Shown in pieces: positions 34,504 through 36,716 of a stretch of 36,716 bases of DNA (position 1 is the first letter of the stretch; each line of letters begins with the position of its first letter). This DNA comes from an uncultured bacterium (GTDB taxonomy: Bacteria > Patescibacteriota > Minisyncoccia > Moranbacterales > GWC2-37-73): assembly GCA_903861715.1 (NCBI GenBank), contig CAIOVI010000055.1, positions 1 through 36,716 of the forward strand. Reading direction: 5' to 3'. A program made the position numbers and the translations under genes. The notes beneath the pieces are model-generated. The model was not told the DNA's origin, made no database searches, and was given only the letters and a program-made list of their open reading frames with translations.

Positions 34504-34779
34504 TTACAAGTTTTCCCGATACCACTCCATGGTTTTTCCCAATCCTTCACCGATGCTAGTTGTCGGCTCATAGCCAAGCAAAGTTTTTGCCAAAGTGATG
34601 TCGGCATAGGAATCTTGGATGTCGCCTTTTCTCGGATCCCCAAAAACAATTTTTGATTTTGATTCAGTTGCCTTGATGATATTTTCAGCCAAGGTAGTGA
34701 TATCAATTCTGCCAGAATATCCAATATTAAATCCTGTTATTTTTTCAGTATACCCCACCCCCAGCCAAGAATCAAGCAA
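34504..34779 (-). pseudogene. C-terminal fragment of an NAD-dependent sugar-nucleotide epimerase
   Basis: The last 75 or so codons match the end of extended-SDR epimerases/dehydratases (UDP-glucose 4-epimerase type): GFNIGYSGRIDITTLAENII, then IVFGDPRKGDIQDSYADITLAKTLLGYEP and GLGKTMEWYRENL. The Rossmann domain and the YxxxK site are missing. Upstream of GFNIG the sequence becomes repeat element A1 rather than enzyme. The frame remains open, but there is no SD or ATG, so it is probably not expressed as an enzyme. It sits just upstream of the flippase on the same strand, where an intact epimerase would fit. Confidence 0.85.
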
Positions 34780-34781
34780 AC
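34747..34781 (-). promoter_or_regulatory. Repeat A1, promoter-like
   Basis: On the minus strand TTGATT (34775-34770), a 17-bp G-rich spacer CTTGGCTGGGGGTGGGG, TATACT (34752-34747). Copies A2 and A3 share the whole core. It faces the epimerase fragment and the flippase. Confidence 0.6.
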
Positions 34782-34901
34782 ATTCAACAATCCAACTCCT
34801 CTCTTTCCCATCTCTTCATGCATTTTTTCGATGTCTCCTCTTTCACATCTCCGCTTCTATTCTCACTCCTTCTCCAGCCCCTATATCACTCAACTCCAAC
34901 C

Positions 34902-35018
34902 TGGCACCAACTCCAGACGACCGCATATTTTTGGTGCCAAGGGTTTGCATTAACTGGTCAATACTCACCCCAATAAGATAACCACAAAAAGAAGGTCATT
35001 TTTTGTTTTGCCAAACAA
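34902..35018. repeat. Repeat B1, long copy with hairpin
   Basis: TGGCACCAA (34902-34910), a 20-nt loop containing GACGACCGCAT, TTGGTGCCA (34931-34939), then about 78 bp of flanking homology ending in GCCAAACAA. The whole 117 bp is about 90 per cent the same as B3 (36467-36578). No ORF. Confidence 0.85.
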
Positions 35019-35021
35019 ACA

Positions 35022-35056
35022 ACAATACCCCCACCCCCAGCCAAGAATCAAGCAAA
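35022..35056 (-). promoter_or_regulatory. Repeat A2, promoter-like
   Basis: Same core as A1 and A3: TTGATT (35051-35046), an 18-bp G-rich spacer, TATTGT (35027-35022). The -10 match is poorer and the spacer one base longer, so it may be inactive. It abuts B1. Confidence 0.45.
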
Positions 35057-35147
35057 CCCAGGCATCTGCATCCACTAAATTTTTCAACCCCACCTGCTTG
35101 TTTTTTACTTTTTAATCAAAATTATTACTGTGTTTGCCTGATCAATT

Positions 35148-35189
35148 TTACAAATTTTCTCAATACCACACCATCGTCTTTTGCAAGCC
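35148..35189 (-). pseudogene. Remnant of a second epimerase 3' end
   Basis: The minus-strand sequence reads GLQKTMVWY-stop-ENL-stop, aligning with GLGKTMEWYRENL-stop of the 34504 fragment at about 80 per cent of bases over 42 bp. It starts directly after the stop of the AlbA_2-type gene (35190). It shows that another epimerase copy once ended here. Confidence 0.7.
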
Positions 35190-36168
35190 TTACAACACTT
35201 TCCAATACCCCCCTTTGTCGGGGCCAACTCGCTCAATGAGTCCTTTTTCCTTTAATTTAGACAGATTATATTTAATCCCATCTTCCGTTATATTTTCCAA
35301 ATTTTCAGATATTTCTTTTCGAGAAATTTGAGGATTCTTTATCAGCAACTCCAATATTTTCTGGGTAGTTTTCTGGGTAGTTTTCTGGGTAGTTTTCTGA
35401 ACACCAATACTATTCCCTGGTAGTTTTTGGATGTCTCCTCGCTGTAAGGCTGGTCGCATAAAAATAATGGAAAACCAATTTTCATTGGTTTCAATTTTTG
35501 GATTTGAAAGACCATATTCCTTCATTGCTTTTTTCATGCGTAAAATTCCAGAACCTATCTTTTCAACAAGATCCATTCTTTGCATCAAGCCAAACAAAAG
35601 ATTATTTCTTGACAAGCTTCTTTTTCCCAATTCTTTTATTGTGATTCCATTCACCAAGCCACCTGGATTTGTAATCTCAACACGATCAGAAAAAATATAA
35701 ATTTGAATATTGGCACCTGTTACAAAATAGTTTCTGTGTGCAATTGCGTTCAAAACCGCTTCACGGAGTGCATCCTCTGGAAGTTCAAGTTTTTCTTCTC
35801 TTGGCCCACCCTTGATTATAAATTCCGTATTCAGCCTTGAACGCAAATAATTCATGGCGTTTTCATAATTGCTGAATAAATCAGCATCAAACTCCTTCCT
35901 GTCCAATATTCTATATTTCGTTTTTCCATAAAAAAGCACACATGTAATTGTTGACTGCAAAAGAAACTTTGTAACATCCTTAGAAAAAAGAAGCACGCCA
36001 GCATTTTTGATTTTATCGTCAGAAACTAAGTTAAGATTTGTTAAAATATCACGTGTTGGCAAAAGCACACATCTCTTTACCAATAGTTGAGCTATGCGAT
36101 TCCTTAAATTCAACATTATAGCCTTCTCCCTGACTGATATAAAATTCTAGTTCTTTTTTGTTTAGCAT
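35190..36168 (-). pseudogene. AlbA_2/ATP-binding-type transcription regulator, internally deleted and frameshifted
   Basis: The first 39 codons from ATG 36168 read MLNKKELEFYISQGEGYNVE followed by FKES and CAFANT, the start of an AlbA_2 (Slfn-like putative DNA-binding) domain, then stop at 36049. A different frame continues with RDILTNLNLVSDDKIKNAGV, FYGKTKYRILDRKEF, EDALREAVLNAIAHRNYF (GHKL-like ATP-binding part) and a C-terminal winged helix ending RVGPDKGGYWKVL. The rest of the AlbA_2 domain, roughly 100 or more residues, is missing at the junction (about 36049-36060). A 12-bp tandem repeat at about 35357-35396 encodes QKTTQKTTQKTTQK. Family members are usually 450-500 residues. A3 is its likely promoter. 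Confidence 0.85.
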
Positions 36169-36212
36169 TTTTTAATTTCCATTATGAAAGCATTCGTAAT
36201 ATGATCAGACAC

Positions 36213-36233
36213 TTATCTTTTTCATAAAGATAA
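36213..36233. repeat. 8-bp inverted repeat upstream of the AlbA_2-type gene
   Basis: TTATCTTT, TTCAT, AAAGATAA. It lies between the A3 promoter and the gene start in the leader, where it could be an operator or RNA hairpin. Confidence 0.45.
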
Positions 36234-36262
36234 AATCAAACATTAAATCCTACTATTTTTTC

Positions 36263-36299
36263 AGTATACCCCACCCCTACCCGAGAATCAAGCAAACAT
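36263..36299 (-). promoter_or_regulatory. Repeat A3, promoter-like
   Basis: On the minus strand TTGATT (36291-36286), a 17-bp G-rich spacer, TATACT (36268-36263). It shares with A1 also the downstream words GAAAAAATA and AGGATTTAAT. It would transcribe the AlbA_2-type gene with a leader of about 90 nt. Confidence 0.6.
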
Positions 36300-36353
36300 T
36301 TGACAATCCAAACAACAAACAAGCCAGACAATTCATGCAACACCCCAGCCACC

Positions 36354-36391
36354 TGGCACCAACTTCCGACGACCGCATTTTTTTGGTGCCA
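36354..36391. repeat. Repeat B2, hairpin-only copy
   Basis: TGGCACCAA (36354-36362), 20-nt loop, TTGGTGCCA (36383-36391). The stem is identical to B1 and B3; the loop keeps GACGACCGCAT but differs at its edges. The long right-hand flank is absent. Confidence 0.8.
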
Positions 36392-36466
36392 GACATTTTA
36401 ATTTCATAATCAGAACCTCTCTCACTATTTCTCAACCACAATCCTTTCAAAAAGCAACCCAGACAG

Positions 36467-36578
36467 TGGCACCAACTCCAGACGACCGCATATTTTTGGT
36501 GCCAAGGGTTTGCATTAACTGGTCAATACTAATTTCAATAAGATAACCACACAAAGAAGGTCAGTTTTTGCCAAACAA
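36467..36578. repeat. Repeat B3, long copy with hairpin
   Basis: TGGCACCAA (36467-36475), 20-nt loop identical to B1, TTGGTGCCA (36496-36504), then the same flank as B1 to GCCAAACAA (36570-36578). Homology to B1 ends there, 66 bp before the OrfA start. Confidence 0.85.
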
Positions 36579-36644
36579 TATAATGGTCCCATAAATCTGC
36601 ACACGAAATATGCTAAACTTAGAGGGAAATATTAACCCAAATTT

Positions 36645-36716
36645 ATGACCAAAATACACAAAACCTTTAGCCCCCAAGAAAAAGCCCAAGTAGCTCTCAC
36701 AGCTATCAAGGGTGAA
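36645..36716 (+). mobile_element. Start of an IS3-type transposase OrfA, cut by the window end
   Basis: The 24 codons from ATG 36645 read MTKIHKTFSPQEKAQVALTA then IKGE. This is the classic beginning of IS3-family OrfA (helix-turn-helix protein): F(S/T)xExKxxVALxAlKGE. In an IS3 element OrfA is joined to the DDE transposase OrfB by frameshifting; OrfB would lie beyond the window. The left end of the element probably lies between 36579 and 36600, where homology to B1 stops. The match is short, so the family call is fairly, not fully, secure. Confidence 0.7.

Follow-up and report, generated by a model that had tools for sequence, protein, structure and literature searches.

Clade-specific hairpins, winged-helix Cas2-fold proteins and hairpin-bounded single genes in an uncultured Moranbacterales lineage

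The attC sites of integrons are structured hairpins with variable arms that bound single-gene cassettes, lie mostly in one orientation, and enclose variable content at a fixed locus. The hairpins described here are alike in all of these respects, including variable single-gene content at one locus (murI, CDPS plus murI, or a Mur-ligase-like gene), but they lack the conserved RYYYAAC and GTTRRRY end boxes of attC, vary freely at their ends while conserving the apex, fall into several independent classes per genome, and have as their likely partner a Cas2-fold protein whose gene is enclosed by hairpins of its own; among the neighboring open reading frames scanned, none was recognized as an IntI-type tyrosine recombinase. 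Like the REP/RAYT and IS200-IS605 systems, they are short, dispersed, tied to a small neighboring gene, and found as solo copies that have spread, also into genes. The protein here, however, joins a winged helix to a Cas2 fold and has no HUH motif, because no histidine is invariant among the Cas2-like proteins in protein alignment A3. The only IS200-like Y1 transposase in the genome (PF01797; L031 1501-1863, contig 46) has its own, unrelated hairpin, ACCTCGGGGCAAGCCCGCGAGGT, and an IS200/RAYT assignment was rejected on that ground.

CRISPR Cas2 proteins share with the protein considered here a ferredoxin-like fold and an invariant aspartate, but the latter is fused to a winged helix and matches the curated Cas2 model weakly. 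No CRISPR-type array, with identical repeats and regular, unique, non-coding spacers, was found at the loci examined; what separates the hairpins is either a whole gene (0.6-2.8 kb) or a short gap of irregular length. PaaX regulators have the same succession of a winged helix and a PaaX_M Cas2-like domain, yet the PaaX structure has 305 amino acids compared with about 185 here, and the present family is multi-copy, with clade-specific palindromes. In Rickettsia, palindromic elements are inserted in frame in conserved genes, and an in-frame palindrome within folC is the counterpart here, although it is 38 bp long, is a single genic case, and belongs to hairpins tied to a protein-coding partner family.

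By membership tests, the system lies outside integrons, CRISPR arrays and PaaX, with an integron-like working and a Cas2/PaaX-like fold. No description of a hairpin/Cas2-like cassette system was found in the open-access literature; prior accounts may exist elsewhere. The hairpins are, with somewhat better than even confidence, the recombination ends of a gene-cassette system that has a small winged-helix, Cas2-fold partner, and the locus from which the analysis started is, at the same confidence, a decayed array of that system.

Hairpin H and the repeats around it

The window, meaning the whole stretch of 36,716 nucleotides that was analyzed, is an entire contig (C55) of a 1.28-Mb genome (G000) in 63 contigs, whose size and gene content suggest a bacterium of the Patescibacteria type. 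A sequence-only reading had described two repeated parts, A and B, each in three copies, and had taken them to form duplicated modules of hairpin, promoter and exchangeable gene body. Three copies exist of a 38-bp hairpin within A, here called H, with perfect 9-bp arms and no strand assigned: copy A1 at 36467-36504, copy A2 at 36354-36391, and copy A3 at 34902-34939, which reads TGGCACCAA, a loop with ACGACCGCAT, and TTGGTGCCA. The core ACGACCGCAT occurs three times in the window, compared with 0.02 expected from shuffles. The 104-bp A block itself is present only twice, at 34902-35005 and 36467-36570, with 94% identity, and its left part of 66 bp (34940-35005 and 36505-36570, minus strand) is duplicated locally only. 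The mobile-looking portion of A is the 38-bp hairpin H.

The B part comprises two full copies, B1 (36232-36311) and B3 (34716-34795), which are 88% identical over 80 bp, and a third copy truncated to 29 bp (35029-35057), all on the minus strand. Both full copies carry sigma70-like boxes (TTGATT-17-TATACT), while the third has lost its -10 box. Neither the 80-bp B nor the 66-bp left part of A recurs anywhere else in the genome or genus. B is therefore outside the system, and A and B do not make up a joint cassette frame. The words reported as shared by the segments that join A to B (CATGCA, TTGGATTGT) amount to a weak likeness, although the region immediately ahead of B does align.

On the minus strand, the corrected order is an IS3-like end (36716-36579), A1, A2, B1, an AlbA_2 gene (36168-35190), the truncated B, A3, B3, an epimerase 3′ fragment (34735-34504), and a flippase. 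Hairpins A2 and A3 enclose the AlbA_2/RecG-C-like gene, a pseudogene with an N-terminal piece at 36049-36168 that ends CAFANT-stop, a large internal deletion with a change of frame, and a C-terminal open reading frame at 35190-36116; against a 457-amino-acid relative (L093), it gives a single aligned block that covers only residues about 170-455 of the relative. The sugar-nucleotide epimerase 3′ remnant, also on the minus strand, has about 75 codons, starts at the end of B3, and is the only such fragment where two had been claimed. The repeats ahead of the two gene bodies are real, but both bodies are remnants, and for that reason no exchange is visible in the window.

The IS3-like element end (36579-36716, plus strand) is interrupted by the contig end. 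Its terminal 62 bp recur in at least six other contigs of the genome, and this multi-copy element interrupts the assembly at the ends of many contigs (C56, C42, C57, C46, C16, C8). A and B were considered as ends of an IS3-family element, a possibility the sequence-only reading had named as counting against itself, and were rejected as such, since the IS end is a separate sequence whose other copies lack A and B. A known structured RNA was likewise rejected: an Rfam scan returned nothing at gathering score and one chance-level match below it.

H occurs six times in the genome, three times in the window and once each on contigs C16, C40 and C50. The expectation that copies would be found elsewhere, each beside a different single gene, was borne out for H in the same genome and genus, and not for B; conversely, the objection that A and B might exist only here is true of B and of the left part of A, and untrue of H. 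The H pattern is absent from 107 relatives outside the genus, and among about 85,000 species genomes scanned it matched only two sister bins, both uncultured and environmental. With the arms loosened and the loop core ACGACCGCAT kept, hairpins with arms CCAAAAC...GTTTTGG appear in two further genomes (G003, G005). The window arrangement of hairpin, spacer and hairpin, in which A1 and A2 enclose 75 bp (36392-36466, minus strand), recurs with 86% identity on contig 51 of the sister genome G002, where four copies stand in tandem as H-s1-H-s2-H-s1-H and s2 is the counterpart of the window spacer, also at 86%. In four genomes (G003:C60, G005:C31, G001:C116, G002:C51), as in the window, arrays of the H subfamily are surrounded by duplicated pieces of polysaccharide genes (Wzt-like ABC, glycosyltransferase). 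A second dispersed palindrome family in the genus, GAACTCCACGGAGGACGGTCCTCCGGAAAC (L034, L032, L055, L062), often adjoins glycosyltransferase gene remnants.

The C40 copy, identical over 38 bp to A2, lies inside folC with the reading frame kept. About 18 residues are absent at the position of H from the folC products of G003 and G004 (protein identity 78-80%), and in G001, G002 and G005 another palindrome, GCTCGGAGCTTAGCTCCGA, stands where G000 has H. This linker (L001 about 1496-1538; L087-L089) appears to be a permissive spot for in-frame palindromes, whether H or GCTCGGAGCTTAGCTCCGA. No target-site duplication was seen by eye at H insertions.

A viral origin was rejected. The strict hairpin pattern had no match in viral contigs; these yielded a single, distant relative of the Cas2-like protein, and phage records yielded no relative at all. 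With the loose pattern there were 71 scattered viral matches, likely due to chance because this pattern has low specificity. Plasmids searched for Cas2-like relatives yielded PaaX-type regulators only.

A winged-helix Cas2-fold protein and its cognate hairpins

The likely partner of the hairpins is encoded outside the window and had no place in the sequence-only reading. In G001, G003 and G005, H-type hairpins flank a PaaX_M/Cas2-like gene in the fixed order H, gene, H, about 100 bp, H, and the product has 184-203 amino acids with a winged helix and a PaaX_M/Cas2 domain. Genes of this kind are present in 49 of 105 relatives, with up to 11 per genome. G000 has seven, none of them in the H-associated GCGGTCGT subfamily.

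Scores against the PaaX model are 25.8-29.5 bits, with a cut-off of 264.55, and the protein ends after the Cas2-like domain, so that the C-terminal part of PaaX is absent; full-length PaaX, with its winged helix, Cas2-like domain and C-terminal domain, was rejected on both counts. The curated Cas2 model TIGR01573 is matched weakly above its cut-off (27.7-28.8 bits), and the Pfam CRISPR_Cas2 model near or above its own. The Cas2 fold with its conserved invariant Asp (residue 111 of L121) is present, and residues invariant in the alignment include W101, D102, W105, R106, D111, P113, R120, R124, Q136 and S138. In an AlphaFold2 model built from 35 aligned proteins (mean pLDDT 82, pTM 0.65), the predicted C-terminal half superposes on PaaX over 80 residues of its Cas2-like domain (Z 9.9, rmsd 2.5), and on Cas2 proteins (Z 8-9), and the predicted N-terminal half gives a middling match to winged-helix regulators (Z about 8). 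Foldseek matches of the model include Cas2 and VapD structures, with PaaX the best fold match. Likeness of a modeled fold to Cas2 does not by itself establish activity.

The association of protein and hairpin was measured in about 80 fetched loci which, with three earlier loci, contain 85 Cas2-like genes. The 80 loci contain 69 core hairpins, defined by at least 9 paired bases with CGRCCG at the center, compared with 0 or 1 in dinucleotide shuffles. Their density is 2.25/kb up to 100 bp from the gene and drops to about 0.03/kb at distances above 500 bp. The first detector, which required a CGRCC core, found a hairpin at 43 of the 85 genes; dropping the requirement revealed other apex classes (GCATATGC, CTATAG, CGATCG, CGGCCG). 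Scored without any core requirement (flanking-hairpin score of at least 18), a matched flanking pair accompanies 80% of the 85 genes in the bacterial order, against 3% of 166 other open reading frames in the same loci and 3% of shuffled pairings of upstream and downstream hairpins; 16 of the 85 have no matched pair at the threshold used. The apex class follows the protein clade: it changes 13 times on the protein tree, whereas in 1000 label shuffles the changes averaged 30.8 and never fell below 24.

The two hairpins of one gene differ mainly in their arms, and often both arms have changed in such a way that they still pair (L249, L254, L318, L313), which points to the folded hairpin as the form recognized. 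The tally of arm changes gave 40 compensatory cells against 117 broken cells, the latter arising partly from ungapped alignment, and the compensatory changes are accordingly taken as supporting evidence only.

Single genes gained, lost and exchanged at hairpins

Same-class hairpins often continue beyond the Cas2-like gene and separate additional single genes. The clearest case lies between a gene for a 169-amino-acid protein and an MFS transporter gene, where G003 (C58) reads H-Cas2like-H-murI-H, G000 (C37) reads H-Cas2like-H-CDPS-H-murI-H, with CDPS a cyclodipeptide synthase, and G002 (C3) reads H-Cas2like-H-840-aa Mur-ligase-like gene-H. In the alignment of the CDPS junctions, the left flank is conserved up to the end of a hairpin and the right flank from the start of one, and the difference is thus exactly one gene plus one hairpin. 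The anticipated swapping of gene bodies between fixed parts is accordingly seen at one locus in three species, with different genes between cognate hairpins, the fixed part being the hairpin only.

Other loci show similar differences. Two hairpins with 2.8 kb that include a reverse transcriptase in G009 (C4) correspond to one hairpin in G018 (C16), and two hairpins with methyltransferase-like cargo in G003 (C66) correspond to one in G000 (C38) and G004 (C18). A comparison of G005 (C31) with G003 (C60), which involves a nucleotidyltransferase/HEPN-type pair, is similar and less exact. At another locus, the flanking genes are common to G003 and G005, but the Cas2-like genes between them differ, and so does the hairpin class that goes with each. 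The G009 insert (L266 799-3646) places a reverse transcriptase and a 188-amino-acid gene between two cognate hairpins in a cassette-like manner; the latter gene has a GGLYVR...WDWFYDW...SSRPALL tail and there is a similar template-like stretch, so that the pair looks like a diversity-generating retroelement. No excision product or circular form was seen.

These observations are consistent with a mechanism in which each protein subfamily would have a cognate hairpin whose arms vary but remain complementary and whose apex is conserved (CGGTCGT / ACGACCG in the present case), units of hairpin, gene and hairpin would be gained, lost and swapped at the hairpins, and hairpins alone could spread too. 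The Cas2-like protein may recognize the folded hairpin, as a single strand or a cruciform, through its winged helix, and the Cas2 fold, with its invariant Asp, may cut or join it; cassette movement would then be site-specific recombination, and the exchange the work of this protein. The broader proposal, that such proteins use their cognate hairpins to mobilize both their own genes and single cargo genes, as a hitherto undescribed mobile cassette class common in this order of bacteria with small genomes, is put forward tentatively, at a little under an even chance. Its cargo would include toxin-antitoxin, restriction, diversity-generating retroelement and biosynthesis genes, in an integron-like setting with a Cas2 fold. 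The cassette-like exchange suggested by the sequence-only reading is thus partly right, with hairpin, gene and hairpin as its unit, while the window itself would be a decayed array (H, spacer, H, B, AlbA_2 pseudogene, B remnant, H, B, epimerase remnant) without a matching Cas2-like gene, probably scrambled further by local duplication of B and left-A segments and by insertion of the IS3-like element.

Competing explanations and significance

An operator or a terminator role is possible for the hairpins, because PaaX relatives are transcription factors and the next gene lies on the same strand after 42 of 58 downstream hairpins. The palindromes could be double-stranded operators of local PaaX-like repressors, each regulator binding those near its own gene and adjacent genes, with cassette gain and loss due to ordinary RecA recombination, which between repeats of 38-48 bp could possibly yield identical junctions. 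PaaX as the best fold match, the N-terminal winged helix, upstream hairpins at a median distance of 57 nt from the start codon, and palindromic apices (CGGCCG, CATATG, CGATCG), as expected of dimer sites, all fit such operators. A duplex reading, however, needs no pairing between arms, whereas between the hairpins of one gene the arms vary with complementarity kept and the apex does not; 16 of the 58 downstream hairpins separate convergent genes, a position without a promoter, and gene-less tandem arrays (G002:C51) and the copy within folC are also hard to accommodate, as are proteins that lack the C-terminal part of PaaX and score far below its cut-off. Operators, the main rival reading, are on this evidence unlikely to be the whole account.

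A reading of the hairpins as bidirectional terminators or as sites of RNA processing, duplicated along with genes, is rather improbable; the Cas2-like protein would then be an RNase that acts on the RNA hairpin and plays no part in mobility. Terminators require neither a clade-specific apex nor a near-identical copy directly upstream of the same gene, and they do not account for entire genes gained exactly at hairpins, even though downstream hairpins do lie close to the stop codon (median 29 nt), A/T runs end many arms, and relatives of the Cas2 and VapD structures matched by Foldseek can be RNases. A local accident, in which the margin of a polysaccharide cluster, beside an IS3-like element, was tandemly duplicated and decayed and the REP-like hairpin has no particular function, is kept for B and the left part of A, which are confined to this site beside remnant gene bodies and an adjoining IS end, but as the whole account it is very improbable and was rejected for H, which is dispersed and belongs to the wider family linked to Cas2-like proteins.

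If the gene-cassette reading is correct, a Cas2-fold protein would be the mobilizing or recognizing factor of a cassette system outside CRISPR, which would bear on the origin of Cas2. A multi-copy protein family so far named only after PaaX would gain a function, one that is directly testable since each Cas2-like protein has a predicted cognate hairpin. For these reduced-genome bacteria, the system would offer a route of gene gain instead of integrons.
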